From positions 29,040 through 93,039 of the forward strand of contig JAEORN010000003.1 of assembly GCA_016840825.1 (NCBI GenBank): a stretch of 64,000 nucleotides of DNA, read 5' to 3'. A program made the position numbers and the translations under genes. Source of the stretch: Candidatus Thorarchaeota archaeon (lineage in GTDB: Archaea; Asgardarchaeota; Thorarchaeia; Thorarchaeales; Thorarchaeaceae). Position 1 is the first letter of the stretch. Each line of letters starts with the position of its first letter. Of this stretch, positions 10,801 to 30,670 are shown piece by piece. The notes beneath the pieces were generated by a model. The model was given only the letters and a program-made list of their open reading frames with translations. It had not been told where the DNA came from and ran no database searches.

Positions 10801-12556
10801 TGATCTCGAACTCTACGGAGAGAGTAAGGGTGACGGACGCTTGTAACAGTGCGTCCACCCATTCTAATATCGTACTTATCGCACCGCTCGCTCCGGGTGC
10901 TAGGAAGTCCATAATGGTAAGCGTAAAGGATGCATCCAGCTCGAAGTAAAAGCCCCATTCCCGAACTTCAATGAAAGCACGGTCAGTCTCGCTATTATCG
11001 ATTGGCGGGAAGGCTAACTGGAAATGTGCGCTTCCGAAGAAATCCAACGAGAAGCCACTCAGGATGGCTTGTGTCCATGAGCTCTTCTTCGGTAAGAACG
11101 CGCAGACACCTAAATCGATGTCCATGATGGGTACGACGTCAATGAATCTTCTGACTTCAGCGAAGGCAGTAGGAACATCCTCTGTCGCCAGGGTCTCACT
11201 GAAGTTGCCATCGCCAAGAAGTGAAGCAGTAAAGAACTCCTCAAAAAGAGTCTTGTCAAGCTGGAATTCTGGAATCAGCTTGATACGCACAACCAACCCA
11301 AAGCTGGCAAAACTCGAACCAAGATTGATGGGTGTACCAAGGCGCATCAAGAAGACGGGAGTAAGTCCCTTGAGCTCAAATTGCACAGGCGTATTCACAA
11401 GACGCTCAATGTAAGTGCTGATCCAGCCATCTAATTCATACCAAGCATCGAGGATCACTTGGTCTGTGTAAGTCCATAAGCGTAACATATCTCCGCCGCG
11501 AAGGAGAGGAATAGCGTCAGAGAAATTCGATCTAGTAACATAGATACCGGTCTCATTGAAGAAATCAATCACTTTGTAGATGCTTTCATTTATCGCATCA
11601 TCTATCCGGTTCATTATCATAGAAGCTGCGTCCACATGCAGCTCGAGGTCCTCAAACCCATGGTCAGTTATCAAATCAAGTAGGGTATCCAATATCCACC
11701 CGATCGAGCCACCAACGCCACTAGACGGGCTCATCTCTCGAAGACCAATGTAGTTCTCGTCTTGAGCCTCAACATGTCCTGCTCGCATCACAGGCTGCAG
11801 TTCTTCACCGGTATCATCATATTGTATCTCTTCTTCGATCCATGAATCGGTCAGTGCTGGATCGGTAACAGGCTCTGGAATTCGCTCCCCAGTATATGTA
11901 TCAGGTATCATTCCCTTGGAGATTATCTCATTAATCTCGTCAGTAAAATTCTGAACAACCCATATCCTGAGATTTTCACCACGCTCAGTTAGTGTATCAT
12001 CTGTTGATGCCAAGAGGGTTTCAACAGTTGCTAATAGTCCATGAAGAACAGTGATTCGGAGGTCAATAACATCAGATTCCTCAATAAGGACATTCTCAGC
12101 ACCATCCAGATAGGGTATCATTTCTTCAGCATTTCCAACTCCAAATACATGCTGAATGTGAGTCGATTCCTTGACAATCTGAGCAACTCTGCTCCATGGA
12201 GTCAAGGTCTCTCCAACAAGAAGTCCCTTTGAATTGGTCTGAAAGATATAGATTATCTCATCCCCTTGGGACATACTCACCAAGTGCTCAAGATACAAGA
12301 AGGAGTCAATTGGGACAAGACTAACTTTCAATCCATGCTTCGTCAAGGGATCTTGGATATCGCTAACAACATCATAGAAATCTTCAGAAGTAGGATCGTA
12401 GAAGATCGAAACCACGAACTCCTCTGGCAGGGATATTGCAGCATCACTTTTCATATCTAGCTCACTTGCACTAGCTGTTATCATGAATGAGGAAATAGTT
12501 AGCATTCCGATAAGCAGAGTCACAAGTATCTTTTGAGCAATTACTTTAGAATTCAA
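7856..12556 (-). CDS. Membrane-anchored surface protein with a long thrombospondin type 3 repeat stalk
   Basis: A 1566-residue protein. A signal peptide (about 1-30) is followed by an unrecognised head of about 680 residues. About 26 copies (by eye) of the calcium-binding DTDxDGLxD motif come next (about residues 715-1480), many spaced by 20-40 residues ending in xTDPxxx. A membrane helix (about 1487-1512) and a cytosolic Lys/Ser/Thr tail finish the chain. TSP3 repeats form rigid calcium-filled stalks, so the head is probably projected from the cell. The start is TTG, with GGAGG 9-10 nt upstream at 12567-12571 (minus strand). First gene of the surface operon; its TGA overlaps the ATG of the propeller gene. 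No enzyme motif was recognised in the head. Confidence 0.85.
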   Translation of the reverse strand: MNSKVIAQKILVTLLIGMLTISSFMITASASELDMKSDAAISLPEEFVVSIFYDPTSEDFYDVVSDIQDPLTKHGLKVSLVPIDSFLYLEHLVSMSQGDEIIYIFQTNSKGLLVGETLTPWSRVAQIVKESTHIQHVFGVGNAEEMIPYLDGAENVLIEESDVIDLRITVLHGLLATVETLLASTDDTLTERGENLRIWVVQNFTDEINEIISKGMIPDTYTGERIPEPVTDPALTDSWIEEEIQYDDTGEELQPVMRAGHVEAQDENYIGLREMSPSSGVGGSIGWILDTLLDLITDHGFEDLELHVDAASMIMNRIDDAINESIYKVIDFFNETGIYVTRSNFSDAIPLLRGGDMLRLWTYTDQVILDAWYELDGWISTYIERLVNTPVQFELKGLTPVFLMRLGTPINLGSSFASFGLVVRIKLIPEFQLDKTLFEEFFTASLLGDGNFSETLATEDVPTAFAEVRRFIDVVPIMDIDLGVCAFLPKKSSWTQAILSGFSLDFFGSAHFQLAFPPIDNSETDRAFIEVREWGFYFELDASFTLTIMDFLAPGASGAISTILEWVDALLQASVTLTLSVEFEISKKYQGQGLPSLSTFLLDIVVGVTLNIRLLICVFKGTFQVGLKFLQTSGVLEEPSPTMTLAEESITPGAKFFPAATSTSEVGAWLTLYVSLYLGIDLWFVEFGTHFGGPWTETWTIYHDTSQAEYGTESADLTDTDRDGLPDDFETRMNTIWGGTYLNPNSDDTDSDGISDNLELILNTYPHIADSDGDGLSDGDEYLIWMTELLLPDTDYDGLTDYEECIIYHTNPHELDTDQDLLSDYHEVTTTYDVSHTYGTIGSVEGVEIGGVVYTDRTDPLNPDTDNDGLMDGEEWDNGVEFLNETELATIPYVYFQYTHPLDADTDDDSVRWNWETDHYEPDFSVIYMDLNDGIEVFGFYATIPDTEGYPIVHFLHTNPCNPDTDNDTAWPPPPYQYMTDAYELIRQPYPTDPTDGDTDDDMLKDGYELIGIGGSGTDALTPDTDNDNLPDYLDWKLPTDPRDPDTDDDMVLDGDEYLIYGTDPIRNDTDSDGLTDGEELFYFYCNPNIRDSDYDGLTDGEEILMYLTDPLVNDTDHDGLSDGYEVFSSHTDPRLFDTDNDRLGDGEELLIYNSNPLDWDTDHDSFDYPNATHAMTLPLGDGDEVLDYGTSPITVDTDNDGLTDSQEIYLGMGWPGHDPVPLNPLSNDTDGDGLIDGDEMIIENISIINYPYEGLIITLRWGSCPVLNDTDGDLLIDSLEVANSTDPADWDTDGDSLSDGEEMLYLGTNPLSNDTDGDEIPDAIEVWNGTDPLDNTSLWLGFALADYVLAQNPRSAFFGTSATDSDTDDDLLPDGLELLYGTDPLDPDDNNNGILDGYEFDADHDGLSDGEEFYIYETWKTKLPIANGTWTGDPGGFDNPDSDLDGIPDGVEVYTYGSDPTNPDTDGDGIPDGEETGFLGGILVPVTEGLPSWLLLLVGGGVGLLVGIILPPTLRFIGGKVRGSGKSETKTTKKTGEAKKSTKSTKSTKSTKSTKSKSTEEDDKK
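7876..7931 (-). repeat. Short tandem repeat encoding a (K-S/T) cytosolic tail
   Basis: Tandem copies of a degenerate 9-bp unit (complement GTCGATTTC-like) encode a KSTKST-type run at the end of the stalk protein, just inside the membrane. The reading frame is kept and the copies differ at wobble positions. Confidence 0.7.
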
Positions 12557-15138: not shown

Positions 15139-15208
15139 GAAAAAATCCGGCTGAAACGTGGACTACAAATAGTTCCTGCTGTAACTCGAATGGGGTTAAG
15201 TGTTGACG

Positions 15209-15838
15209 ATGGCAAAAGACGGTCCCGAGATGGGACTAATCCTAGACAAGGCCACGAACCTAATGAATAACTCGAAGTTCATTGATGCGATAGAAGCATT
15301 AGAGAAGGCCGTTTCAATTGATCCAAGCAATCGTTTTGTTTGGGATAATGTTGTAACATGCAATTTGGAACTTAAGCGACCGAAGAAAGCACTAGAAGCA
15401 ATGAATTCAATATTAAACATAGACCCTAATGCTCATCAGGTGTGGGCAGATAAGGCCTACCTACACTTTCTGTTACAGGAGGATAATGAGGGAGTAGAGG
15501 CTCTCAAGAGAAGTCTTAGACTCAATCCTAGAAACCATAGAGATTGGTATTTATTGGGATCGGTCTACATGGTGAATGAAGAATGGGACGAAGCCAGGGG
15601 AGCGTTCCACAATGCACTTCAACTCAATCCAAATGATTCTGCTTTATGGTATAATTTGGCAGCTGTTAATTATATGCTTGGAGATATAGGAGCAGCTCTT
15701 GGTGCGGCAGAACAAGCAACATCTATTGATCCAAGTCTTGATGATTCAGAAGACAATTGGCTTGATGAACTGAAAGAAACCTTTGAACCATCCTTAGATG
15801 ATGATGACTTCTTCATGGATCTTGCTGCTGGTAGCTAG
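15209..15838 (+). CDS. TPR-repeat protein
   Basis: A 209-residue soluble protein made of about four to five tetratricopeptide repeats (residues about 10-165; for example ALEKAVSIDPSNRFVWDNV and AFHNALQLNPNDSALWYNL), then an acidic tail rich in Asp. TPRs form protein-binding superhelices, so a scaffold role is inferred; no partner is known. The start is uncertain: ATG 15209 is used, but TTG 15203 lies 7 nt after GGGG and GTG 15200 is also in frame. Its stop codon shares the four bases CTAG with the stop of the convergent WD40 gene. Confidence 0.8.
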   Translation: MAKDGPEMGLILDKATNLMNNSKFIDAIEALEKAVSIDPSNRFVWDNVVTCNLELKRPKKALEAMNSILNIDPNAHQVWADKAYLHFLLQEDNEGVEALKRSLRLNPRNHRDWYLLGSVYMVNEEWDEARGAFHNALQLNPNDSALWYNLAAVNYMLGDIGAALGAAEQATSIDPSLDDSEDNWLDELKETFEPSLDDDDFFMDLAAGS

Positions 15839-17826
15839 CTTTCTGATTTCTTAGCTTTCCGCGTCCTACTCTTTGGTTTCTTCTCACTGGTTTCTATTTC
15901 AGTGGGAGTTTCAACCTTCTCAGGTTTTACTGGAGTAGCTGGTTCAGTACCCTTTAGCAGGTCTAATTCATTTGTTAGAAGTGCAATCTCATCTTTCAGT
16001 TTATGTGATTTTGCGGCCTCTAATGCTTGAGCAATAGCTGCAATCAGCTGATTTGTTTCACGCTCAACATCAGTCTTGTTTTCAGTTTTCGAAATGGTTT
16101 CTTTGCGTTTACTCAACACACTGAGTAATCCCTTGATTGCCGCAATAGTCTCATCCTTTGATAGAGAAACATCCTGACGTTCACTACTAGACACGCTTAG
16201 TATCTTCTCGATCTGCTCCTTTAGGTTTGTGAACTCAGATAGGGAGGTTTCAAGAATTTCAATGACCTCATCATCTTCAGCATTTTCTATACTCTTTTCT
16301 AGTTTCGAAATTGCCTCAGCAAGGAACTCATTACGTTCCTCCAGAGAGGATCGCTTGCGTTCTATCCATCGCCATTCACTTCGAATATTCTGAGTAAGTG
16401 TGAGAGCTCCTGTGATCTTCTCCTGATATAGTTCGAATTTCTGCTTGGCTTCTTTCAATTCAACCTCAAGATTATCTGTGGCGTGAGTGAGTTGATAGCT
16501 AAGGATATGTCCAGCTTGCGCTTCTGAAAGGACTCTACTTTCTTTAATGGCTCGGGATCCTGAATTCCAGAGCTTCTCGAGTTCTGCTTCATCTTTGCTA
16601 GAATGTCCATCTCGATCGAACTCATCAGATATGATCATAATCTCTTTTGTAAGGTCTTGAATCTCAGAGATCTTTGCCCTGAGAAGCGAATGTCCAAGTC
16701 TTTCATTCAAATCATTGGTCAAAGTCTCTCGTTCTTTTGGAACTTCCATTAAAGCATGAATATTGTCAATCAAAAGCTGGAGCGCCTGTTCGTAGTCAGC
16801 GACAGCATCATGAAATTCCCCTTCCTTTATCCTTTCATCTCCCCTCCGCTGGAGATCTAAAACATTCTCGAGAACATCATAGGGAGATGTCCTAAGTATG
16901 CCAGGGCCATAAAGCAAACCATCTTCAGCTGAGAGGTCCAAAGGTTGTTGACCAAGGGAGAGAGATACTGCAAGAATCTTATTCGGGATTGCAAGGAAGA
17001 CAAATTGTTTATCTGCCCGTACATGCAGAATCCTGGATCCATCAATACTAATGGAACCCACAACAACACCCTTGCGAAGATCCCAGATTGATACCTTTGA
17101 GGAATTTGACGACACGACAAGATAGAAGTTGTTAGCCCACATAGAACCCATCGCATTGTTATCAATAGGTGGAAGAGTTTTGATATGAGACCACTCGACC
17201 CGATCCCAGAGTTTGACATCTGCTGTTGTTACAGCAGTGATGATGAGATTGGCATTTCCTACAATTTTAGCTCCTTTGTCTTTCTTATCCAGTCTTTTGA
17301 GCTCGGTTGGTGCACCCTCATTTTCCAACTTCCAGATGACTGGTTCATCTTTTCCTGTTCCTGTACATATTATCTCACCGTCGCCCCAGAGATTTGCGAT
17401 ATCAGCCTTGAATAGCTGCCAACTCGAAGTATCATGAGATTCTTTCTTTATTGAAACTAACCGACCTTCTTTTGCACCGACGTAAAGCGAGTCCCCCCGG
17501 AGAGTAGATGTAACAGCTGAGTAGCTTAGTTCGAACCATCCAATCATTCCCCAAGAGTTCTTATTCCAAACGTAAACCCGCTTCTCACAAGTAGCATAGA
17601 CTTGATTCTCATCGACATGAACAGCAAGAGGAGGAGAACTAGTTTCACCTAGCTCAGCAACGAGTTGCCAGTTCTCTCTGGACCACACCCTTACCGTTAG
17701 ATCAGTACACGCGGCATATACATACTTGTCATCAACATTCAGATAGACTGCGTCGCCCTCTAGTTGAGCTTCAACATTGTGTTGGAGACGCGGTGAGGCC
17801 GCGCTACCTCCCGCAGATTTAGCCAT
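15835..17826 (-). CDS. WD40-like propeller and coiled-coil protein
   Basis: A 663-residue protein. Residues about 25-300 are WD40-like blades (YAACTDLTVRVWS, VYVWNKNSWG, VKLWDRVEWSH, VSIWDLRKG). A TPR-like helical hairpin follows (about 330-375, RIKEGEFHDAVADYEQALQL), then about 230 residues of coiled coil and a basic Lys/Arg/Ser tail. Propeller plus coiled coil is a layout common in eukaryotic trafficking and cytoskeletal scaffolds, but no orthology is claimed. The ATG at 17826 has AGGA 9 nt upstream and is preferred to a TTG at 17853. The gene is divergent from the cytoskeletal operon with about 215 nt between the start codons, which invites a functional link. Confidence 0.75.
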   Translation of the reverse strand: MAKSAGGSAASPRLQHNVEAQLEGDAVYLNVDDKYVYAACTDLTVRVWSRENWQLVAELGETSSPPLAVHVDENQVYATCEKRVYVWNKNSWGMIGWFELSYSAVTSTLRGDSLYVGAKEGRLVSIKKESHDTSSWQLFKADIANLWGDGEIICTGTGKDEPVIWKLENEGAPTELKRLDKKDKGAKIVGNANLIITAVTTADVKLWDRVEWSHIKTLPPIDNNAMGSMWANNFYLVVSSNSSKVSIWDLRKGVVVGSISIDGSRILHVRADKQFVFLAIPNKILAVSLSLGQQPLDLSAEDGLLYGPGILRTSPYDVLENVLDLQRRGDERIKEGEFHDAVADYEQALQLLIDNIHALMEVPKERETLTNDLNERLGHSLLRAKISEIQDLTKEIMIISDEFDRDGHSSKDEAELEKLWNSGSRAIKESRVLSEAQAGHILSYQLTHATDNLEVELKEAKQKFELYQEKITGALTLTQNIRSEWRWIERKRSSLEERNEFLAEAISKLEKSIENAEDDEVIEILETSLSEFTNLKEQIEKILSVSSSERQDVSLSKDETIAAIKGLLSVLSKRKETISKTENKTDVERETNQLIAAIAQALEAAKSHKLKDEIALLTNELDLLKGTEPATPVKPEKVETPTEIETSEKKPKSRTRKAKKSES

Positions 17827-18042
17827 GATATTCAGTCCTACAAGCAAATTCAACGCTATTAAGTGAGTTTTGTTTCACAAATGATTGTTTTAAGGCTTTA
17901 TTCAACCGTGCAAACAGCGAATTTTCGATGAGAACGAGCCAAAAAAGGCAATATAGACGTATGATAAAGAAATAAAGGAATAAACACAGAACACACTTAA
18001 GACATACACATTCTCATGTATCGCCATACTGGAGGTTTTTCA
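17827..18042. promoter_or_regulatory. Divergent promoter region between WD40 gene and FtsZ/tubulin-like operon
   Basis: About 215 nt of A/T-rich DNA separates two divergent starts. Plausible TATA elements are TTTTAAG near 17889-17895 for the minus gene and the A/T-rich stretch 17963-17983 or CTTAAG near 17997 for the plus operon. None is a perfect box. GGAGG at 18031-18035 is the ribosome-binding site of the plus operon. Confidence 0.35.
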
Positions 18043-20730
18043 TTGGACACTAAAAAGTGGAGACGAGAACTTGATAGAGTCTCGGAATTGAAAGGAATGC
18101 TGGTTTCATTGAATCCCAGCCTAGAAGAACAGACAAGTCATCAGATTCGTCAACTATACGATGTCTTTGCAGATCTAACTAAGACAGAGAATGAACTAGG
18201 TACAGCAGGATTCATGGCTAAAAGAAAGTTTCAGACTCAGCGCGACAAGATTGACAATGACCTTGAAGACCTATTCATGAGAATTGTTCGAGAGTTCGCA
18301 GAACTATTTCGAAGAGAGCATAGGGATATCATGGGATTAATGCCCCAGCTCCAGGAAATGAAACCAGCTGAAGCGAAGGTAATTGCAGGTATCAACCTTC
18401 CATCTGTTGGTGCAGGAGACATGGCCGACTTCGAACGACTCTTTGAATTTGGAGATAGCTTTTCGAAGAAATGCATTGCGCTCAAGAATGATATGTCCAG
18501 AGAAGTAAAAGACCTCCTTGATGAAAACAATAGAACAGTAGAAACCTTTGAACGGCATATCACAATAGACAGAGGCGAAGTGGCTACCACAGTATCGAAT
18601 GAGGATGTAATCGGCCTCTCAGTCACGGATCTAATCACAATGAATGACAGGCTCAAAGCTGAGAAAGTCTATCTTGATGGCCGAAGAGGCGAAGTTGGCA
18701 GAATGCTGGGTGTATCCCTCATCGGTGATATCGAATCACTGCAAGCATGGGTCGAAACCTCTACTAGATTGGGTTTGGAATTACCAATGGATTTCTCCCA
18801 AAAACTCAGGATTCTTGCAAGAGAAGCATCCGGTGCGGATAATCTCACGACTCTGATAAGCCTCGAGAGTCAGATGCATGCCTCAAGACTTCAGGTCGCG
18901 AATTTATTGAAAGACCGTATCATCAATATGAAACACGAGGTCACAACAAAATTCGTTGAAGCGGGTATTCCGACAACCTCTGACATAATCCCTCAAGCAC
19001 CATCAATGGTCGTTGAGAATCAGGAAGTTCCAAGTCTGTTATCATCATACCAGAAGATGGTTGAGTGGGAAGGTCAAGTGAAGATATCACTGAAGGATAA
19101 GATAGAGGAATTGCTTGACGACGTCGAAAAGGCTACTGACGCACCTAAGGATACTGGAATTAGTGATGTCGCTGCTACTAAGCAATTTGTATCTGAGTCA
19201 AATAAGATTCTGAAGAAAGGCGAACTTGATGAGATGATTGATATCTATCAAAAGGCTTCAAACATGTCCGATGAACACAAGAAATATGTCAAAGATGCCA
19301 TCAAGTCATATCTGACTCGTTTCAATGAACTCGCTACATCTGCAGATCGTGTTCTTGATTATGCTCAGCTAAGTAAGAAAGCACCAAAAATAGAGGAATT
19401 AGAGGGAGGAATAGTCTTCCATCTTCAGTCACTTGAGAATCTACGAACTGCTGTTGAGAGTGGTGTCGCAACATTCAGAGATGCTTGTCAACAAGAGATA
19501 GAAGCGATAATACAGGATTTGCAAACCATCAAGCCAGCTTATGCCGAGATCTTTATGCCAATCATAACCGAATTAGATGAAGGTGAAGTCAGGATAAGAG
19601 GACTCGATGAATTTGGCGAGATCCGTTCAGAGATGCGTACCATCAAGGAAACGATCCTGGCAAAAGCTAAGGAGTCATTGGAGAACCTCAGGTATAGATT
19701 GGGTGTCAAGATTCGGTTAGCTGCAGCTAAATTAATGGGCGCAGGAGTAGAGATTCCAAAGGAGGTCCAGGATGCTATTGCTGAATTAAATAGCATAGGA
19801 GTCGCTGCAGATACAGTATTCAGCTTGCCACAGCAAGCCAGGAAAATGATCGAGCTATACGAGAGGAAGATCACTGGCAACGTGCTTACGTCATTGAAAG
19901 AGGAGGCTACTACTCTTCAAGATTCATTTAGCAAAGCTGCATCGATTGGCGTACCACTAGATGAGGAACTAGCTATTCTCATGAATATCATTGATAGCCC
20001 TCCAACAGAGTTGGAAGATGCTGCTGATGCATTTGATAGATTAGCAGGTTTGACTACATCTAAGGACATTCAAAAGAGAGTACGTGAACGCGGCAATGAT
20101 GCATATCGTCAAATCAATGGTGCGATCTCCATATTTGAGGAGCAAGGAATGCCTGATTTCGTGAAGAGACTGAAGGCATTGCTTAACCAAGTTCCTCAAA
20201 AGATGGAAGCGGAGTCCAAGTTCATTACTGAACCATTGGAGGTCTGCCTGACACTCGCAAATGTTCAGGAAGAGATGCTTGGAGTAATGAAAAGTATCGC
20301 AAGCAAGGACAAAGAGGCGCATGATAAAGAGATTCGAGAGAGAAGCAATTACTACTCAACTATCGAACGCGTCTATGAGAAGCACCCCAAAGATTTCAGC
20401 AAGCTAATCTACCCACTTGATACTATGCATACGTTAGAGAAGGACCTTGAACAGGCAGAGCAACTCGATAAGGCACTAGAGTATTTCAATGAACTGAAAT
20501 CACTCAGGACAGAATGGATTGATAAAGCTGAGAAAATGGATGACTGGCACAAATCCATGAAGATGTTCATGACAGGATTTAGTCCAACAGCCAGTATTGA
20601 TGAGCGTGAGAAATTCCTAGATGATGCTATTAGGAAGATAAGAGAAACCTATAGTAGAGAGGACATAAGCTCTTATTTGGCATGGGCTGTTAGAGAGATA
20701 GCTCAATCTATGACTAGTAAACGAAAATAA
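18043..20730 (+). CDS. Long helical coiled-coil protein, first gene of FtsZ/tubulin-like operon
   Basis: An 895-residue, almost entirely helical, charged, soluble protein with no signal peptide or membrane helix. It reads as a chain of helical bundles with stretches of coiled coil. A short motif G-(V/L/I)-x-(I/L)-P recurs at bundle boundaries (GLELP, GVEIP, GVPLD, AGIPT), which hints at internal duplication. No family was recognised and no ATPase or nucleotide-binding loop was seen, so it is not an SMC or kinesin-type motor. The TTG at 18043 lies 7 nt after GGAGG (18031-18035) and is preferred to the ATG at 18016, which lies upstream of that site. The tubulin-like gene follows after 18 nt. 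A filament-binding or spacer role is inferred from context only. Confidence 0.75.
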   Translation: MDTKKWRRELDRVSELKGMLVSLNPSLEEQTSHQIRQLYDVFADLTKTENELGTAGFMAKRKFQTQRDKIDNDLEDLFMRIVREFAELFRREHRDIMGLMPQLQEMKPAEAKVIAGINLPSVGAGDMADFERLFEFGDSFSKKCIALKNDMSREVKDLLDENNRTVETFERHITIDRGEVATTVSNEDVIGLSVTDLITMNDRLKAEKVYLDGRRGEVGRMLGVSLIGDIESLQAWVETSTRLGLELPMDFSQKLRILAREASGADNLTTLISLESQMHASRLQVANLLKDRIINMKHEVTTKFVEAGIPTTSDIIPQAPSMVVENQEVPSLLSSYQKMVEWEGQVKISLKDKIEELLDDVEKATDAPKDTGISDVAATKQFVSESNKILKKGELDEMIDIYQKASNMSDEHKKYVKDAIKSYLTRFNELATSADRVLDYAQLSKKAPKIEELEGGIVFHLQSLENLRTAVESGVATFRDACQQEIEAIIQDLQTIKPAYAEIFMPIITELDEGEVRIRGLDEFGEIRSEMRTIKETILAKAKESLENLRYRLGVKIRLAAAKLMGAGVEIPKEVQDAIAELNSIGVAADTVFSLPQQARKMIELYERKITGNVLTSLKEEATTLQDSFSKAASIGVPLDEELAILMNIIDSPPTELEDAADAFDRLAGLTTSKDIQKRVRERGNDAYRQINGAISIFEEQGMPDFVKRLKALLNQVPQKMEAESKFITEPLEVCLTLANVQEEMLGVMKSIASKDKEAHDKEIRERSNYYSTIERVYEKHPKDFSKLIYPLDTMHTLEKDLEQAEQLDKALEYFNELKSLRTEWIDKAEKMDDWHKSMKMFMTGFSPTASIDEREKFLDDAIRKIRETYSREDISSYLAWAVREIAQSMTSKRK

Positions 20731-20748
20731 TGTGAGGAGATTAAGACA

Positions 20749-22143
20749 ATGGTAAATGGTCCACCAAGAATTGGAGAAGATGAAACAAAAGCAGCAGAGG
20801 TTTTTGCAATAGGAGTTGGAGAATGTGGATCCAACATTGTAGGTTCGTATCTAAAAGCCAGCAAGGATAGAAGGCTTCCCTCAAGAGTTAGAGGATATCT
20901 CCTCATGAATACTGATAGAGCAGACCTTACAAAAGTACGGTCGAAGTATGAGATTCCAAAAGAACACACCATGCTGTATGGAGCAAGTGAGATTGGTGTG
21001 GGTGGTAGGTTCATGGATGGCTATAATGCGATTCTTGAGTCAAAGGATATCATCTTTGACCAGTTGGGTGACCTCGGATTTGAGGGGGTTTCAGGTTTCT
21101 GTATCTTCACAAGCCTTGGTGGTGGTACTGGATGTGGAGGAACTCCCGCAATTATCGAGTTGTTGAAGCAGCGATTTCAAGAAGAGGAAGGACGAAGGAT
21201 ATTCGTATATGTCATTGGTATCCTCCCCTTCGAAGGACAATCTAGTGAAGCACTCAATAGCATCTGGGCTGTATCCAGATTACTTCGAGCTCAGCTTCAA
21301 GAGAGAGGTGCGGATCTCACAATCCTCCTTAGTAACAGGACTATGCTGAAACGCATCCTACAATCAAGAAGAGCTGATAGCGTGGACTATCTCCAGAGAG
21401 AGCTAGAGGTTGATATCGCAGATATTGATTCTATTGAAACGATGGTTCCTTCTACACTTGATGAAGGAGGAGAATTGGAGGCAAGAACCGAGCAAGCGTT
21501 CGTCGAACTTGTGAATCCACTTGCTCTTGATGTTGTGGAAGCAATGCTTTCACCAGGTGTTTATGAACCCAACAAAGATGTCTTTCCAACAACAGATCTT
21601 GCAGATTATGCTCGAAAACTCGATCCAGTAGTTGTGCCAGCACTCTATCAAGATATTGGACTTATTCCAGATGCTGGTAGTATGCCAAAGCAGCTTAGGA
21701 CCATGATTGACTATGCTGTCCAAGAATGCAGCTATGCTGATGTTGGCGACGAGCCAAATGCAGAATCGGTATACTATGTCTTCTCAGGTCCAAGACACAT
21801 AAGTAAAGCTGAGTATGGAATGCACCTTAAGGAAGCACTTGACAAGTTCATTGCGCCAGGTGCAGCTATTACACCTTGCTATGTGCAACGACACACTAAG
21901 GATCCCAAGACTGATTTATTGTTACTCTTAGGTCTACCCAAGATACCTGAGCTAGTTCAGATTATCAATGAAGCAACACAACTCGTGAACCTTCACAGTG
22001 GCGCTTCACCACTAAAACAGAGTTGGTTCATGCGATCAAAGGGTGTTCAACGGAAAGAGCTCGTTGATGCTATAGCAGATTTCCGTGAGCTTTTTAGCTA
22101 CTATATGACACCTGGATCTGGAGATATGCAACAGGGCGTGTGA
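20749..22143 (+). CDS. Divergent FtsZ/tubulin-superfamily GTPase
   Basis: A 464-residue protein with the ordered nucleotide loops of the superfamily: T1 GVGECGSN (22-29), an NTDRADL strand end like FtsZ NTDxQxL, a T3-like GASEIGVGG, the T4 signature GGGTGCGG (124-131), LPFEGQSSEALN, SNRTML (Asn196) and a T7-like TTDLADYARKL with Asp283 and Asp286 where FtsZ has NxDxAD. This predicts GTP binding and GTP hydrolysis completed by a neighbouring subunit in a filament. The T4 loop has Cys where FtsZ has Thr and tubulin has Ser, and the span from Asn196 to T7 is about 40 residues longer than in FtsZ. It is therefore neither a plain FtsZ nor a CetZ. GAGGAG precedes the ATG. It is flanked by two helical proteins in one operon. 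Confidence 0.85.
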   Translation: MVNGPPRIGEDETKAAEVFAIGVGECGSNIVGSYLKASKDRRLPSRVRGYLLMNTDRADLTKVRSKYEIPKEHTMLYGASEIGVGGRFMDGYNAILESKDIIFDQLGDLGFEGVSGFCIFTSLGGGTGCGGTPAIIELLKQRFQEEEGRRIFVYVIGILPFEGQSSEALNSIWAVSRLLRAQLQERGADLTILLSNRTMLKRILQSRRADSVDYLQRELEVDIADIDSIETMVPSTLDEGGELEARTEQAFVELVNPLALDVVEAMLSPGVYEPNKDVFPTTDLADYARKLDPVVVPALYQDIGLIPDAGSMPKQLRTMIDYAVQECSYADVGDEPNAESVYYVFSGPRHISKAEYGMHLKEALDKFIAPGAAITPCYVQRHTKDPKTDLLLLLGLPKIPELVQIINEATQLVNLHSGASPLKQSWFMRSKGVQRKELVDAIADFRELFSYYMTPGSGDMQQGV

Positions 22144-22147
22144 AATC

Positions 22148-23221
22148 GTGTCAGACTCATTCAAGACTGAAGACCTTGTGGATAGGCTTCTACTAGTAGT
22201 TACCCTCAACTCTACGCTGGTTCATTTCCTAATCAGCTCACAAGTTGAGGGATATGTGGACCCTGATAGGGTAGACTCCTTAACACAAGGGCTAATCAAG
22301 ACTAGGTCTTGGATAGAAGAAGCCACAACATCAGAAGGCATTCCTGCTTCTACATCAAACATCCTTAGTCTTATCGTCAAGAGACTCACTCAAATTGAGA
22401 GTATCTTGCCAAAGCTCTCAGAGAAAGCAAAGAAAGCAGAACAGAGCAAAACTCCTGCTGCTGAGATCCTCTCACTTCTTGAAGGTAGCGGGCCTCAGAG
22501 AGAAATGCAAGCTTCTGCGGACCAAGGCATTGTACCTGTCGTAGGAGATGATGGCGCTATTGTATCGCTTGTATCAGAAGCACCTGAAGTACCTCGTGAA
22601 CCTTACAAACGAGTTGAGATGGAGAATGACGAATGGGGGATTATCGGACAAACACAGAATCTCATTCAGCAATACAGTAAACGTTGCCACGTCTTACTCC
22701 CAACATTTTGGATGGAAGCTCTAAGAGAGATCCACAAGTATCAATCGCAGTCACAATATCTTGGAGATGTAATCGAGATTCCAGCTCGTATTCTTCAAAA
22801 GGTCATCAAAGGACTCCTGACCGAAGCACCTGGAGCAAGGTTGCTTCAGGATCTCTCAAAGAAGAGACCTCAAGAGAGCTATCTCGATCCATCAGAACAC
22901 GAACGAATCAACCGTGCTGTTAGTAAGTATTTCCAGGGACTTGAAGATGTCCTCATGGACAAGCTACCCGATCCGAAGGAGAAAATCATGGAAGCGCAGA
23001 ATGCCTTCGATGGATTTGGATGGGGAGGACCTGAGCTCGAGAAGCGCCTTATTAAAAGAATCAATCAACAATGTGAGGAAGCAATGCAAAGTGCTGAAGC
23101 ATCAACTGATGCAGCAAGATCAGCTGTATATTCAGAAACAACAAAACTCCTTTGCAAGTTGCAGCATGCAATCCTAGCTGAGCCACGACTACGAGAGCTA
23201 CTCGCCGAGATGAAACCATAA
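22148..23221 (+). CDS. Helical protein, third gene of FtsZ/tubulin-like operon
   Basis: A 357-residue soluble protein. An N-terminal helical domain (about 1-100) is joined by a flexible, acidic and proline-containing linker (about 100-160) to a C-terminal helical domain (about 165-357, including WGIIGQTQNLIQQYSKRC and AFDGFGWGGPELEKRLIKR). No family recognised. The GTG start comes 4 nt after the stop of the tubulin-like gene, so the two are almost certainly cotranslated. An accessory or regulator of the filament is inferred from position alone. Confidence 0.7.
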   Translation: MSDSFKTEDLVDRLLLVVTLNSTLVHFLISSQVEGYVDPDRVDSLTQGLIKTRSWIEEATTSEGIPASTSNILSLIVKRLTQIESILPKLSEKAKKAEQSKTPAAEILSLLEGSGPQREMQASADQGIVPVVGDDGAIVSLVSEAPEVPREPYKRVEMENDEWGIIGQTQNLIQQYSKRCHVLLPTFWMEALREIHKYQSQSQYLGDVIEIPARILQKVIKGLLTEAPGARLLQDLSKKRPQESYLDPSEHERINRAVSKYFQGLEDVLMDKLPDPKEKIMEAQNAFDGFGWGGPELEKRLIKRINQQCEEAMQSAEASTDAARSAVYSETTKLLCKLQHAILAEPRLRELLAEMKP

Positions 23222-23308: not shown

Positions 23309-23351
23309 AGCACTCCTTTACCTATTGATACTGAGATGGAGGGCGGATAAA

Positions 23352-25295
23352 ATGACTAAGACCACCAAGCTTACGTTACTGCTTACTACTATCTTGGTTC
23401 TAGGCATCTTGTCAATTCCCATTGCACCAAAAATAGTGGAGCATCGGATTTCGGAGTCTTCAATTCATGGAATGAGTGTCAACAACTCTAGGTTCTTGCA
23501 GCCACACCTCCTATCAACAGTAGTTTCCTCTGCATCTTTCGGGGGCGACTCTATTGATTACTGCACTGACATGACCATTGATGATTTCGGAAACGTATAC
23601 CTGACAGGTTATACGAATTCTCAAAATTTCCCCCAACAAGGGTATGGTGATACTGCTGTTATAGCTGGATACGATTGCTTTGTCATGAAATTCAATCCTA
23701 CTTGTGATGTTCTCATATATTCTGCAATCATTCGAGGCAGCGGAAGTGATGAACCATCTGCTATAGATGTTGACAGTCAAGGAAATGCATATGTTGTTGG
23801 TGAAACCACCTCGACCGATTTCCCAACTACCAACGCTTTCGATGATTCATTTAATGGAGGTAGCGATGGTTTCCTATTCAAGCTGAATCCAGAAGGTGAT
23901 ACCCTCCTCTATTCAACCTATATTGGAGGTTCGAACTATGATTCAGCAGAAGCTCTCCTTGTCGAATCATCAGATACAGTCCTTATCTCTGGCTACACAA
24001 ATTCATACGAATTTCCTGTAACTGAAGGAGCCTTTGATGAAACATATAACGCAGTAGGGGACGGATTCATTCTAAAGATAGACATCAACTCAAATGTACT
24101 GATCTTCTCCAGTTTCTTTGGAGGTTTTGGTTGGGATAGCCTGTACTGCATAGCACAGGATTCTGTAGGAGATATCTATGTGGCAGGGAGGACAACATCA
24201 AGAGACCTTCCTACAACAGCAGGGGCCTACGATAGAACGTATAATGGAGGCTCTTATGACTGTATAGCGTTCAAGATGAACGGTAACGGAAGTTCATTAA
24301 TTTACTCTACTTATTATGGTGGCTCAAGTTGGGATTACATCACCTCAATTCAAGTTGACTCCTCTGGAAATGCATATCTATTCGGAGCTACATATTCGTC
24401 AGACTTTCCTACTAAGAATGGATATGATGACAGCTTAGGTGGAAACTGTGATGCGTATGTCTTAAAACTAAATAGATATGGAAATTCGATTGAATTCTCA
24501 ACATTTGTTGGGGGTTCATCATATGATTTTGGATGTGGCTTCTCACTCGGCTCAAGCGGTAGTATTGTGATTACGGGAGAGACCAAGTCCGATGATTTTC
24601 CAATCACAACAGGGGCTATCTCAAAATCGATGAATGGTCCATCGGATATCTATGTCTTGATGCTCAACTCCAGTGGAAGAGAAATTCTTTACTCTACATA
24701 TTTCGGTGGATCGTATTATGAGGATCCATATGCAGTTGTGCTTGATTCTGATGGCAATGCCATAGTGACTGGTGAAACGGAATCCTCAGATTTTCCTCTC
24801 GAAGAGGGATATTCTGATCTTTCTAAAGGAGGTCGAGATTGTTTCCTTATTAGAATCCCAGACCTAACTGATAGTGATGGCGATATGCTTACAGATGAAG
24901 AAGAAGTTACTCTTGGAACTAACATTAACAATATCGATACAGACGCTGATACGTACTCTGATTACTGGGAATATCAAAATGGGTTTGATCCTACTGATCC
25001 GATTGTCCCATTATCTGAGCCCATTCTATACTATATGCCATTAGCGGCACCAGTTTCATTGATTCTGATTATCTCTATGCTGATCTTGTTCCGAAAACAA
25101 ATCATTATGAGTTATCGTCTTATATGGCCACAAAACCGACGAGTTCTATTGTATGAATGCCCCTCCTGCCATATGAAATTCGAAGCTCCTGTTTCAGGTG
25201 TTGGGAGTAGGAAGAGAAAATGCCCAGAGTGTGGAACGTTAGCCAAGAAAGAGAATCAGATTCAGTATATTGATGAGAATTCTCACGATTCTTAA
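23352..25295 (+). CDS. SBBP beta-propeller surface protein with cytosolic zinc ribbon
   Basis: A 647-residue single-pass protein. It has a signal peptide (about 1-25) and about eight SBBP-type propeller repeats (about 50-505; for example YSTYIGGSNYDSAEALLV and NAYVVGETTSTDFPTT). Then come one or two TSP3-like calcium loops (DSDGDMLTDEEE, DTDADTYSD), a membrane helix (about 560-582) and a cytosolic tail holding a C4 zinc ribbon (CPSC...CPEC). Propeller outside and zinc ribbon inside suggests that binding at the surface is linked to something in the cytosol. The start has GGAGGG 8 nt upstream. Monocistronic, with its own TATA box. Confidence 0.8.
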   Translation: MTKTTKLTLLLTTILVLGILSIPIAPKIVEHRISESSIHGMSVNNSRFLQPHLLSTVVSSASFGGDSIDYCTDMTIDDFGNVYLTGYTNSQNFPQQGYGDTAVIAGYDCFVMKFNPTCDVLIYSAIIRGSGSDEPSAIDVDSQGNAYVVGETTSTDFPTTNAFDDSFNGGSDGFLFKLNPEGDTLLYSTYIGGSNYDSAEALLVESSDTVLISGYTNSYEFPVTEGAFDETYNAVGDGFILKIDINSNVLIFSSFFGGFGWDSLYCIAQDSVGDIYVAGRTTSRDLPTTAGAYDRTYNGGSYDCIAFKMNGNGSSLIYSTYYGGSSWDYITSIQVDSSGNAYLFGATYSSDFPTKNGYDDSLGGNCDAYVLKLNRYGNSIEFSTFVGGSSYDFGCGFSLGSSGSIVITGETKSDDFPITTGAISKSMNGPSDIYVLMLNSSGREILYSTYFGGSYYEDPYAVVLDSDGNAIVTGETESSDFPLEEGYSDLSKGGRDCFLIRIPDLTDSDGDMLTDEEEVTLGTNINNIDTDADTYSDYWEYQNGFDPTDPIVPLSEPILYYMPLAAPVSLILIISMLILFRKQIIMSYRLIWPQNRRVLLYECPSCHMKFEAPVSGVGSRKRKCPECGTLAKKENQIQYIDENSHDS

Positions 25296-25374: not shown

Positions 25375-26781
25375 ATGAAAGGTCTGGATCTAATGCTTAA
25401 TCCTAAGGTCACTGCTGTTGTTGGAGTATCAACTTCGAATCCATTTTCCCCAGGTAATGTAATCTTCAGGAAATTATGCTTTGAGAATGGATTACCAACA
25501 TACCCCATCAACCCACGAGGAGGATTTGTCGAGGGACAAACTGTCTTCAAATCGATTACAGAGGCTCCTAATGATATTGAGATGGTAGTGATATCAGTTC
25601 CTGCCAAGTATGTTCCGGGTGTCATTGAGGAGTGTGGACAAAAGAATATCAAATCCGTTGTTGTCGTTTCAGGTGGTTTTAGCGAAACAGGAGAAACAGG
25701 TGCAAGTCTCCAGGAAGAAGTCATAGACCTCTGCAAAACATACGGAATAACAATGGTCGGTCCAAACTGCATTGGGGTCTTCGTACCAGATCAATTAGAT
25801 ACATTCTTTCTACCCTCAGAAAGAGTCGCTAGAGCAAGAAAAGGTTCAGTAGCGCTGATCTCGCAAAGTGGAGGATGGCTAATCGAACGACTTGAGGAGT
25901 TCGCATCTCGGGACGTCGGGATAGCAGCTGCAATCTCAATTGGTAATGCAGCCCAAACTAAGGTCTATGATTTTATAGAGCATTTCGGACATGACAAGGC
26001 GGTCAGTGCTATCGTCTGTTATATAGAAGGCTTTGGTGCTGATGAAGGCCGAAGATTCGTTGAGATATCAGGGAAGGTGTCTCAAAAGAAACCCATTATC
26101 GTTCTCAAGGGCGGACAATCCGAAGCCGGGCATAGAGCAACACAAAGTCATACTTCATCTCTAGCCGGAAGCACTGTCATTTCCGCAGCCGCCTTTAAGC
26201 AATTCGGAGTCATAGAGGCAGAAGATGAGGATGAGGTAATGGCCTATTCCAAGGTCTTCTCATTCCCTGCTAGAACTATGGAAGGCGACAATCTTGGATG
26301 TCTAACCGTCAGTGGAGGACATGGGGTGATTGCAACAGATGAAGCAGATCACTACGGATTAGGTTTTCCACAATTCACAGAGCAGGACCAAGCTGCAATG
26401 AAAGAAACTGTTACTCCAGCATATCAGGGTATAGCATCTTTCCGCAATCCTTGCGATCTCACTGGAAGTGCTTCTGATACAGACTACGAAGGTGTACTCA
26501 AAGTCATGCTAGATATCGACTATATTGACGCAGCGCTTCTCCTCTTGCTTCCATATGCACCAGGCATCTCACTTCAAATTGGAGCACGAGTAGCAAATAT
26601 CGCAAAGACAAATAGCAAGCCAGTAGTAGCCTATGTGCCAGACCTTGATAAATATGAAGTAATTATTCGAGGGTTTGAGATTAACGGAATTCCATGCGCA
26701 GACACCATTGAAGAAGCAGTTCAAATGCTCAACGGAATTCGAAAGAGATCGAGGTATCTTCAAAGGATTGGAAAGCTTTAG
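25375..26781 (+). CDS. Acyl-CoA synthetase (ADP-forming) alpha subunit
   Basis: A 468-residue enzyme subunit. In archaea ADP-forming acyl-CoA synthetases turn acyl-CoA, ADP and phosphate into acid, ATP and CoA (or the reverse). The chain has the CoA-binding Rossmann domain (VTAVVGVSTSNP, VISVPAKYVPGVIEECG) and two succinyl-CoA-ligase-like domains. SHTSSLAG carries His259, matching the phosphorylated His of the Pyrococcus enzyme, so it should be active. The ATP-grasp beta subunit is not adjacent and not elsewhere in the window, so it must come from another locus. The stop overlaps the convergent isomerase gene by four bases. Confidence 0.85.
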   Translation: MKGLDLMLNPKVTAVVGVSTSNPFSPGNVIFRKLCFENGLPTYPINPRGGFVEGQTVFKSITEAPNDIEMVVISVPAKYVPGVIEECGQKNIKSVVVVSGGFSETGETGASLQEEVIDLCKTYGITMVGPNCIGVFVPDQLDTFFLPSERVARARKGSVALISQSGGWLIERLEEFASRDVGIAAAISIGNAAQTKVYDFIEHFGHDKAVSAIVCYIEGFGADEGRRFVEISGKVSQKKPIIVLKGGQSEAGHRATQSHTSSLAGSTVISAAAFKQFGVIEAEDEDEVMAYSKVFSFPARTMEGDNLGCLTVSGGHGVIATDEADHYGLGFPQFTEQDQAAMKETVTPAYQGIASFRNPCDLTGSASDTDYEGVLKVMLDIDYIDAALLLLLPYAPGISLQIGARVANIAKTNSKPVVAYVPDLDKYEVIIRGFEINGIPCADTIEEAVQMLNGIRKRSRYLQRIGKL

Positions 26782-27914
26782 GGGCCTACCGTCCCTCTTG
26801 CGATTTTGAGATAGTCAATATCTAGTGACTTTAGATACTCTTTCAACTCACCCTTGATAGTAAGTGGGGATCCTGCCAAGTGTTCTACCTTACTACATCC
26901 AGTAAGATACATTGCAGTTCTTAGCCCTTCTAGATGTAATTCAATTTCAGCTATTACATCATCAGTTGTACCATTAACTGCTGGTTCTAGAAATGGATAT
27001 GCCATTCCTGCTGCAGTAGCACCAAGAGCAAGGGTCTTTGCTATGTCGATCCCTGAACGTACTCCACCTGTGGCTACTACCTCTAAATCAGTCACATCCT
27101 TAACCATGATGATACTGAGTGCAGTTGGTATCCCCCAATCCCAGAAATCTAGTCCAAGCTGAGCTTTGACGGCGTCATTCTCCTTCAATGCTCGATAATA
27201 TTCTACTGCAGCCCAGCTGGTGCCACCAACGCCACCCACATCTACCGCAGAAACACCTACTGACTCAAGTGATGCTGCTACTCTTGAAGAAATTCCAGCA
27301 CCTGTTTCTTTTACCATCACGGGCACATCAACTGAGTCTACAATCAGACCAATGTTCTCTAGAACTCCTATGGAATTGCAGTCACCCTCAGGTTGGATTG
27401 CTTCTTGTAGGGGATTAAGATGTATTGCAAGGATATCAGCATCAATCATCTCGACAGCCTTTGGTGCGACGTCAACATGTGTTGCTCCTATGTTTGCAAT
27501 TATCGGAACAGTTGGAGCAGAGTCCCTTACAATCCTGAAAGTTTCTGCAAGCTTTGCATCTTCGATGCCTGCACGTTGACTCCCTACGCCAATAGGTATA
27601 TGCATCGCCTCAGCTGCTTCTGCGAGTTTTTGGTTGATACTCGTCGTGTCAGGATGTCCGCCTGTCATCCCTGCAATAACTAGAGGTGCATCTGCTCGTA
27701 GTCCAAGAAAATTAATTGTCAGGTCAATTTTATCCTTATCAATTTCAGGCAAGGCATTGTGGATGAAGTTAACATCCTCAAGAAGCGTAGATCTATTGCA
27801 CTGCACATTTTCCTGTAAACAGATTTCAATGTGCTCAATCTTTCTTCTCTTGGTCTGTACAGATTCTTCCAACAAATCAGAATCACTTAATTCGCTTGTC
27901 TTGCCTTTTGACAT
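26778..27914 (-). CDS. fni: Type 2 isopentenyl-diphosphate delta-isomerase
   Basis: A 378-residue FMN-dependent TIM-barrel enzyme that interconverts isopentenyl and dimethylallyl diphosphate for archaeal lipid synthesis. Family motifs are clear: RKIEHIEICL near the N-terminus, MTGGHP, GVGSQRAGIED, HLNPLQEAIQPEGD, VKETGAGIS, DVGGVGGTSW and ATGGVRSGIDIAK (FMN phosphate site). Length is close to the family norm plus a short acidic N-terminal extension. No other isoprenoid gene is adjacent. Confidence 0.95.
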   Translation of the reverse strand: MSKGKTSELSDSDLLEESVQTKRRKIEHIEICLQENVQCNRSTLLEDVNFIHNALPEIDKDKIDLTINFLGLRADAPLVIAGMTGGHPDTTSINQKLAEAAEAMHIPIGVGSQRAGIEDAKLAETFRIVRDSAPTVPIIANIGATHVDVAPKAVEMIDADILAIHLNPLQEAIQPEGDCNSIGVLENIGLIVDSVDVPVMVKETGAGISSRVAASLESVGVSAVDVGGVGGTSWAAVEYYRALKENDAVKAQLGLDFWDWGIPTALSIIMVKDVTDLEVVATGGVRSGIDIAKTLALGATAAGMAYPFLEPAVNGTTDDVIAEIELHLEGLRTAMYLTGCSKVEHLAGSPLTIKGELKEYLKSLDIDYLKIARGTVGP

Positions 27915-29272: not shown

Positions 29273-30670
29273 ATGTGTGGAGTATTGGGCATACTTGGTA
29301 GTTATTCAATATCATCCGCAAGGGATCTACTATTATTACTAACTCATCGTGGACAGGATGCCTCAGGGCTTCTTTGGAAAAGAGAGGATGGATTTGAATC
29401 GAGTAAGACAATGGGAAGTCCATCTCAAATTGAAATACCTAGCTCTGAAAGTGGTATTACTATCGGGAGTACCAGATATCCGACATCAGGAAGAAAAGTT
29501 GTGTCAGAAGAAGATTTGAGAACTTTTGTGGGACCCTTCGCATCAGGAAATTTGGCTTTGACACATAATGGAAATATCACAAACATGGCACAAGTGTCTG
29601 AGAAGATATACGACTGTGACTCAGAGTTTATCACTGATAGATTGGCCTGCCACCTTCTGGAAAATGATGATGACCTTGCTCAAGCCTTTAGGTCTCTAGA
29701 TAGAGAAGTTGATGGAGCGTACAGTCTAATTGGAATCCACAGAGGAAGGATGTTTGCCTATCGAGATTCAAGAGGGTTCAAACCATTGGTCTTCGGGCGA
29801 ACACAGGATCATACCTTCATTGCATCAGAAAGTACAGTTCTGGACATGGCAGGCGCGGTTTTGGAAAGAGATGTGTACCCTGGAGAGCTCTTGGTATTCA
29901 ATCCAGATATGTCCATGGAATCGCATGCTATTGCACAGGGAAAAACCCATTCACATTGTTTCTTTGAATATGTCTATTTTGCTCATCCGGCCGCAACAAT
30001 AGAGAATAATCTCGTATATGATACCCGTTTTCGACTTGGCAGAGCTCTTGCCAACAAATTTAGAAAAATGGACCTCGAAACCCCGGATTATGTTGTTCCA
30101 GTCCCAGATACAAGTAGACCAGCAGCTCAAGCTTTGGCTGAGGATCTTGGAGTGCCCATGAGAGAGATAATCTTGAAGAATCGCTACTTAGGTCGAACAT
30201 TCATTGCAAGGTCACAACAAGAAAGAGATGCGATGGCAAAAACGAAGTACATCTATCTTGAAGATAAGATTCGAGGAAAAAGCATCCTGGTGGTAGATGA
30301 TAGTATTGTAAGAGGAACAACTGCGAAGATGATTGTAGCAGACTTGCGAAAACGTGGTGCTACAAGCGTGTTTTTTGCCGCTACTTGCCCACCCCAGACG
30401 CATCCCTGCTATTATGGAATTGATATCGCAACAGATAAGGAACTAATAGCATCAGACACTGATATCCAAGGGATCGCGGAGTACATTCAAGCTGATGCAT
30501 TAATCTACCAAGACATGGTGGGCTTGGTGAATGCAATTGGACTGAAGGATCTATGTTTAGCCTGTTTGGACGGAGAATATCCAACTGAACATGCAAAAAG
30601 AATTCGTAGAAGTATAGAGGAGAATGGGACTTCTGCAGATGGAAGAGACTATGAGAGGTCATTGGGATGA
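29273..30670 (+). CDS. purF: Amidophosphoribosyltransferase
   Basis: A 465-residue enzyme making phosphoribosylamine from PRPP and glutamine, the committed purine step. The N-terminal Ntn glutaminase starts MCGVLGI (Cys2 nucleophile, exposed after Met removal, no propeptide). The C-terminal phosphoribosyltransferase domain has the PRPP loop ILVVDDSIVRGTT. Cys229, Cys379, Cys428 and Cys431 (LCLAC) line up with the four ligands of the [4Fe-4S] cluster in Bacillus PurF, so this is the Fe-S type. Its TGA overlaps the ATG of purP1. Confidence 0.95.
   Translation: MCGVLGILGSYSISSARDLLLLLTHRGQDASGLLWKREDGFESSKTMGSPSQIEIPSSESGITIGSTRYPTSGRKVVSEEDLRTFVGPFASGNLALTHNGNITNMAQVSEKIYDCDSEFITDRLACHLLENDDDLAQAFRSLDREVDGAYSLIGIHRGRMFAYRDSRGFKPLVFGRTQDHTFIASESTVLDMAGAVLERDVYPGELLVFNPDMSMESHAIAQGKTHSHCFFEYVYFAHPAATIENNLVYDTRFRLGRALANKFRKMDLETPDYVVPVPDTSRPAAQALAEDLGVPMREIILKNRYLGRTFIARSQQERDAMAKTKYIYLEDKIRGKSILVVDDSIVRGTTAKMIVADLRKRGATSVFFAATCPPQTHPCYYGIDIATDKELIASDTDIQGIAEYIQADALIYQDMVGLVNAIGLKDLCLACLDGEYPTEHAKRIRRSIEENGTSADGRDYERSLG

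Follow-up and report, generated by a model that had tools for sequence, protein, structure and literature searches.

A 64,000-nt stretch of the genome of a Candidatus Thorarchaeota archaeon (contig JAEORN010000003.1 of assembly GCA_016840825.1, positions 29,040 to 93,039; hereafter the window) carries three closely spaced genes that encode a long helical protein (A), a divergent GTPase of the tubulin/FtsZ superfamily, and a smaller protein (C). As judged from sequence comparison, the GTPase represents a distinct clade that has been inherited together with both partners in a fixed order across Asgard archaea. We propose that the three genes together form a cytoskeletal module that Asgard archaea possess in addition to, and distinct from, their FtsZ proteins, and assign this reading a probability of about one half. 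The trio bears on an open question, the origin of the eukaryotic tubulin cytoskeleton and its companions. Earlier Asgard work, as far as the accessible parts of its papers go, centres on FtsZ and on tubulins from few genomes; the family described here occurs in 72 of 227 Asgard genomes, with a GTPase that is ~48 to 61% identical between lineages and two dedicated partners.

Conservation and distribution of the trio

The order A, GTPase, C recurs in the Thor, Sif, Borr, Hermod and Heimdall/Hod lineages and in one further Asgard lineage (L124-L127), three members of which group with P0059, named Asgardarchaeia, at 100/99 in the broad tree described below. A first scan with one genome per species yielded 63 loci (Thor, Sif, Borr, Hermod, Heimdall, Hod, two Loki and a few titled 'archaeon'); L011 and L028, which are titled Lokiarchaeota, were treated as Thor-like by identity (88% and 85%) and gene order. 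Adjacency, defined as same strand and within 700 nt, was counted over 69 loci, 64 of them with room upstream of the GTPase and 62 with room downstream. A lies upstream in 62/64 and C downstream in 59/62, and gaps longer than 30 nt separate A from the GTPase in 6 of 62 cases and the GTPase from C in 4 of 59. The loci without an adjacent A are L046 and L047. At L046 a 1202-aa open reading frame (ORF) adjoins the GTPase at the usual A position, and an A-like ORF lies beyond it.

The three loci without C (L053, L055 and L059) are second copies in Heimdall/Hod-type genomes that keep A and the GTPase. A gene of ~311 aa stands directly upstream of A in these second copies (L053:5562-6497, L055:2403-3335 and L059:309-1247). 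It is possibly a replacement partner, and a Pfam scan of the L053 protein gave nothing at E <= 0.001.

Comparison of hidden Markov models (HMMs) indicates that A is homologous across six groups (Thor, Hermod, Borr, Heimdall/Hod, the second copies and L124-L127; E 2e-20 to 2e-102), as is C across the five groups having it (E 1.5e-9 to 9e-41). Nine A-against-C comparisons, serving as controls, gave E 0.035 to 0.5; the two are not homologous by this measure, which does not support the idea that they are diverged copies of each other. The Sif proteins stood outside this comparison; the Sif A, an incomplete one, matches at 31% and the Sif C at 27%.

Co-occurrence follows the same pattern. A GTPase-profile match was found in 75/227 Asgard genomes, three of which (G182-G184) were set aside: their matches are weak, lie in frames 378-403 aa long and are probably FtsZ, because the one PF00091 match of each genome is strong. 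Among the remaining 72 genomes, 69 encode A, 68 encode C and 65 all three, and in the seven lacking one partner the GTPase match is a fragment. A occurs without the GTPase in a single genome, where it lies at a contig end (G193), and C likewise in one, with a marginal match (G170, E 7.8e-4). No family member was found in 155/227 genomes and some PF00091 protein in 219/227, counts to be read with the proviso that genomes may be incomplete. Taken together, lineage-wide homology, adjacency and co-occurrence rule out a chance association of the three genes. In viral contigs, 26 stretches fitted the search pattern and none was a relative.

The trio GTPase shares its genomes with FtsZ-type proteins. 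All eight Thor-type genomes searched contain three PF00091 proteins, two with E 1e-43 to 4e-49 and a third, the trio GTPase, with E ~3e-19 to 4e-21; the strong type passes the FtsZ cut-off in 4/4 proteins scanned. A preliminary description of the window, made from its sequence alone, had suggested a module separate from FtsZ and had left its standing to two checks, a tree of the GTPase and the conservation of its neighbours. The two FtsZ-type proteins in the same genomes agree with this separateness, the gene order is conserved and co-occurrence in the 227 genomes is near-perfect, and in the trees that follow the GTPase falls inside none of the FtsZ, CetZ or Asgard tubulin clades sampled.

Phylogenetic position of the GTPase

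Three trees were compared: a broad tree, a reduced tree without the divergent sequences and the TubZ-like one, and a GTPase-domain tree without the divergent sequences. The divergent protein of L161 was left out of all three, and eukaryotic tubulins and artubulins were not among the sequences. The window-type GTPase forms its own clade in each tree, with support of 100/100 and a stem of ~2.2 changes per column in the broad one. A branch places 13 Asgard FtsZ on one side and the GTPase outside (100/100 in the reduced and 99/98 in the GTPase-domain tree); in the broad tree, the divergent protein of L142 enters FtsZ and the window-type GTPase does not. Four haloarchaeal plasmid CetZ group without the GTPase family at 97/97 (broad) and 99/99 (reduced), a grouping that the GTPase-domain tree does not resolve, and CetZ as sister group of the family is not rejected on the reduced sample (p 0.157). 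Four Asgard tubulins likewise group without the GTPase (100/99, broad tree). One Bacillus pumilus plasmid protein, which we label TubZ-like and which matches Tubulin_2, is placed elsewhere on a branch of 2.5. These placements support a distinct clade outside the sampled Asgard FtsZ, haloarchaeal CetZ and Asgard tubulins.

Among the ORFs of the collected loci, members of the family score at least 253.9 bits, and the runner-up, which is a tubulin of Odin type, scores 26.6 bits. Homologues with names are all from Asgard archaea among the best 120 of 156 matches, the closest being Thorarchaeota, and a plasmid search made with a GTPase homologue gave one match at chance level. Other divergent tubulin-superfamily proteins were seen in Asgard genomes G056, G057, G060 and G062 (L144, L153, L154 and L160). 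Those of L144, L153 and L160 fall together in a single clade that is distant from the window-type family, and in G056 and G060 a second weak PF00091 match lies nearby on the same contig.

Family tests, loops and fold of the GTPase

Membership in the tubulin/FtsZ superfamily is indicated by the sequence, with a PF00091 Tubulin score of 71.8 bits (cut-off 33) and a glycine-rich T4 signature. With the FtsZ equivalog TIGR00065, which has its cut-off at 295.2 bits, the GTPase scores 33 bits and 4/4 Asgard FtsZ controls score 403-423 bits. At E <= 1 the GTPase matches neither FtsZ_C (PF12327; present in 2/2 Asgard FtsZ scanned), nor CetZ_C (PF21011; 219 and 271 bits in 2/2 haloarchaeal CetZ scanned), nor Tubulin_C (PF03953; carried by one Odin-type protein and one Atub protein). 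Tubulin_2 (PF13809), the family of FtsZl1, reaches 18.2 bits and stays below its cut-off of 27.

Loop patterns were counted over 113 proteins of at least 430 aa among the 120 best homologues, the window GTPase included. The T1 pattern GxGECGSN occurs in 112/113, the T4 pattern GGGTGCGG in 109/113 and P[TN]TD..D, the candidate T7, in 111/113; T3 (GVGG) and T6 (SNRTML) align to FtsZ and tubulin. The preliminary description had named T1, T3, T4 and T7: the first three are borne out by these counts and alignments, and T7 is backed by its motif and the structure model. We propose T7 at residues 280-287, with D283 and D286 as candidate catalytic acids. In the secondary structure of the AlphaFold2 model this stretch sits between predicted H7 (242-267) and H8 (286-290), and its PTTDLADY may be compared with NLDFAD of FtsZ. 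MAFFT sets the FtsZ T7 against residues 243-268 instead of the proposed loop, and HMM alignments place the stretch holding the FtsZ T7 without confidence; the structural placement is held here as a proposal, not as proven. An alternative, NPLALD from residue 256 as a T7 that had lost its catalytic acids, was dropped given the P[TN]TDLADY motif and the predicted extent of H7.

A fold search with the model returned a tubulin/CetZ-like fold; FtsZ is absent among the 50 matches listed, which excludes nothing. Structural alignment to OdinTubulin covers residues 14-456. The model has three C-terminal helices (DSSP), and an HMM alignment pairs the last helix region, SWFMRSKGV...LFSYY, with an Asgard tubulin.

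The partner proteins A and C

Protein A was predicted to be 82% helical, in agreement with the helical character first read from its sequence (AlphaFold2 model; predicted local distance difference test 85.6, predicted template-modelling score 0.39). The model shows a period of 131 residues, as high as which only 0.7% of segment shuffles come. An HMM of the corresponding ~130-aa unit finds one full copy in the Thor protein (residues 226-356) and three contiguous copies in that of L060 (227-357, 359-482 and 485-603). A is thus modelled as what is probably a rod whose unit has been multiplied in some lineages.

The flanking proteins had also been described as lacking a known family, and indeed A and C of the window stay under all Pfam and NCBIfam cut-offs. 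The weak Pfam matches of A are PhageMin_Tail and Baculo_PEP_C, and across 33 A members at E <= 0.01 no family recurs in more than five, the commonest being Baculo_PEP_C (5/33). A profile search of A against the PDB gave a best E of 0.21, and a viral structure library a best E of 0.0086 with nothing at E <= 0.001.

Protein C is 293 to 380 aa long where complete. Its N-terminal part and linker are variable and its C-terminal ~200 aa are conserved in the alignment; the protein appears helical, as read from its sequence. LPD1 and Med11 are its weak Pfam matches, no family recurs in more than two of 21 C members at E <= 0.01 (commonest DUF3972, 2/21), and the PDB profile search found nothing significant (best E 0.041, to designed coiled coils). 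The protein searches with A and C scored only ~8,000 candidates, chosen by the number of shared words, and listed 120 for each, so that non-Asgard homologues may exist. Downstream of C, Heimdall-type loci hold a protein of 276-297 aa that looks coiled-coil by eye (L042:12532-13425 and L045:12508-13338); the L042 protein is unmatched in Pfam at E <= 0.001. A clear membrane span is absent from all three window proteins, whose maximum 19-residue hydropathy is 1.27 (A), 1.35 (GTPase) and 1.58 (C).

Relation to described systems

Parts of the trio have probably been seen before, in two accounts taken here from the accessible portions of the papers, and the trio is thus not wholly new. The first is Asg.Tub, a CetZ-like Asgard tubulin-superfamily group that is unstable between CetZ and tubulins, was reported from Heimdallarchaeia and Lokiarchaeia, and has a C-terminus unlike any other group and neighbours of unknown family that are mostly coiled-coil (PMC9871819). 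Asg.Tub is probably the window-type GTPase, an equation made by description only and not proven; unlike the present trio, it comes without a fixed three-gene order or repeat structure in the accessible portion of that account. The second is fam15271, termed integrin beta 4-like, which always adjoins the tubulin/FtsZ family fam00241 in five Asgard genomes of Thor and Heimdall type (PMC9258230). Our guess, again by description only, is that it probably corresponds to A, perhaps to C; A as analysed here is, in contrast, predicted to be helical and has no integrin Pfam match. The full trio is undescribed in the titles and abstract openings on Asgard tubulin, FtsZ, CetZ and integrin that were covered, a scope outside which most subscription papers and preprints lie.

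Non-canonical tubulin-superfamily proteins are noted in Asgard and other archaea (PMC9856176), and AtubA/B/C and the Heimdall and Odin tubulins are the subject of Asgard tubulin papers (PMC13394414, PMC13371889), as far as the accessible text of these sources goes. Compared with OdinTubulin and AtubA/B, the window GTPase is a separate clade without Tubulin_C, with helical partners at its flanks and no tubulin pair. From CetZ it differs by its clade and by the absence of CetZ_C. FtsZ1 and FtsZ2 share superfamily and genomes with the window GTPase, which stays below the TIGR00065 cut-off that the Asgard FtsZ scanned pass and has no FtsZ_C. FtsZl1 is likewise a tubulin-superfamily protein found beside FtsZ in operons of unknown genes (PMC2875224, accessible part); the window GTPase differs in falling below the Tubulin_2 cut-off, in its recognisable T6 and H7, and in its neighbours.

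Proposed function and alternatives

In the mechanism we propose, the GTPase would bind GTP through T1-T6 and stack head to tail. The proposed T7 acids D283 and D286 of one subunit would complete the active site of the next, and dynamic protofilaments could result. A, a rod with its length set by the number of ~130-aa units, would bind along or between these filaments as a cross-linker or spacer, and C, small and soluble, might be an adaptor or regulator tying filament or rod to another structure. EzrA is a spectrin-like FtsZ regulator. It and PRC1, long helical-repeat rods on FtsZ and microtubules respectively, offer a working analogy for how A may act; the structure match of A to EzrA is weak and at noise level, and no sequence kinship was found to either protein. 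The trio would more probably serve shape or inner organisation than division, because FtsZ-type proteins are co-present and 155/227 Asgard genomes show no member. The proposal is directly testable: the three proteins are co-expressible and without a clear membrane span, and GTP-dependent filaments cross-linked by A are predicted. A more ambitious version, which we put forward tentatively, would see in the trio an ancestral Asgard cytoskeleton, in which a tubulin-side GTPase lineage that branched near the tubulin root evolved jointly with a spectrin-like, length-tunable rod and an adaptor. Such a system would stand apart from the microtubules of eukaryotes and the proteins associated with them, and it would occur in Asgard lineages for which the analysis found no true tubulin.

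Several other roles deserve consideration. The GTPase might be a nucleotide-gated platform for membrane remodelling or trafficking, acting at membranes or vesicles through a tether-like A and C, as has been proposed for FtsZl1, instead of a cytoskeleton of its own. Its occurrence beside FtsZ-type proteins would suit such a scaffold, as would basic helical stretches such as that of A in L126 (296-313) and the amphipathic helical stretches in C. Other members of the tubulin superfamily whose operon partners are unknown have been suggested to work at membranes (PMC2875224, accessible part). However, the window proteins have no clear membrane span, the Tubulin_2 score is below cut-off, and the vWA, OmpA and kinase neighbours named for FtsZl1 are absent among the 16 window proteins scanned, so we consider this role unlikely. 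The co-presence of FtsZ-type proteins would fit a third division factor, in which the GTPase joins the FtsZ ring and A, by its weak match a possible counterpart of EzrA, regulates it. This is quite improbable given that no division gene other than the GTPase itself was recognised among the same 16 proteins, and that 155/227 Asgard genomes show no family member while 219/227 have some PF00091 protein, with the proviso that genomes may be incomplete.

Segregation systems, too, are known to pair a filament gene with two partners, and GTPase filaments with A and C as DNA adaptors could move a chromosome or element in the manner of TubZ. The fixed order and wide spread in Asgard genomes, the lack of relatives in the viral contigs and the failure of Pfam scans to recognise a DNA-binding domain in A or C make this very improbable. 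Scarcely credible, finally, is an adhesion-linked system in which A is integrin beta 4-like and coupled to the tubulin-like GTPase, as suggested for fam15271 in the accessible part of PMC9258230. Besides the guessed identity of fam15271 with A, it can draw on an E of 0.49 between the A profile and an integrin beta-3/alpha-L chimera; against it stand the predicted helicity of A, its lack of a clear membrane span, and integrin Pfam models that match none of the 33 A members at E <= 0.01. The cytoskeletal module remains our preferred reading.

The locus and its neighbourhood in the window

The three genes lie on one strand with spacers of 18 nt (20731-20748) and 4 nt (22144-22147), just as first described (Table 1). 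An in-frame ATG at 18016 would extend A to 904 aa; the TTG at 18043 is preferred because a GGAGG ends 7 nt before it. A scan for sigma-70 promoters and terminators, with models not made for archaea, stayed at or below chance level.

Table 1. Features of the trio in the window; gene coordinates agree with an ORF check.
Feature	Position	Strand	Basis
Gene A, helical-repeat protein, 895 aa	18043..20730	+	TTG start preceded by GGAGG; homologue upstream of GTPase
A residues 226-356, ~130-aa unit, tandemly multiplied elsewhere	18718..19110	+	Unit HMM
Tubulin/FtsZ-superfamily GTPase, 464 aa	20749..22143	+	PF00091 match
GTPase T1 loop, residues 22-29, GVGECGSN	20812..20835	+	Pattern in 112/113 proteins
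GTPase T4 loop, residues 124-133, GGGTGCGGTP	21118..21147	+	Pattern in 109/113 proteins
GTPase proposed T7 loop, residues 280-287, PTTDLADY	21586..21609	+	Motif in 111/113 and position in AlphaFold2 model
GTPase C-terminal helices, residues 400-449, possibly tubulin H11-H12-like	21946..22095	+	DSSP of model, HMM alignment
Gene C, 357 aa	22148..23221	+	Homologue downstream of GTPase, alignment, cross-lineage HMM matches

Upstream of the trio, a TPR protein (15200-15838, +) and a WD40-plus-helical protein (15835-17853, -) are convergent; the pair is kept in most Thor loci that are long enough and has no match in the loci of other lineages. Downstream, a Succinyl-CoA-ligase-like/CoA-binding protein (25375-26781, +) and an FMN-dependent dehydrogenase (26778-27914, -) are both kept in Thor, and the CoA-ligase-like gene is also found in Sif and Borr at 31-33% identity. 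Between C and this gene lies an SBBP beta-propeller protein (23325-25295, +), the terminal part of which weakly matches a zinc ribbon. The protein is probably an insertion in the lineage of the window because it is unmatched in all 63 loci, as far as each extends. Farther out, two giant adjoining proteins are encoded on the reverse strand, one of 1955 aa with NHL/FG-GAP-type repeats (1992-7859) and one of 1566 aa with a TSP3 match (7856-12556). Two tandem DUF1246/DUF1297 proteins (30667-31620 and 31693-32766, +), which we take to be PurP-like, follow a formyltransferase and a phosphoribosyltransferase-amidotransferase-like protein.

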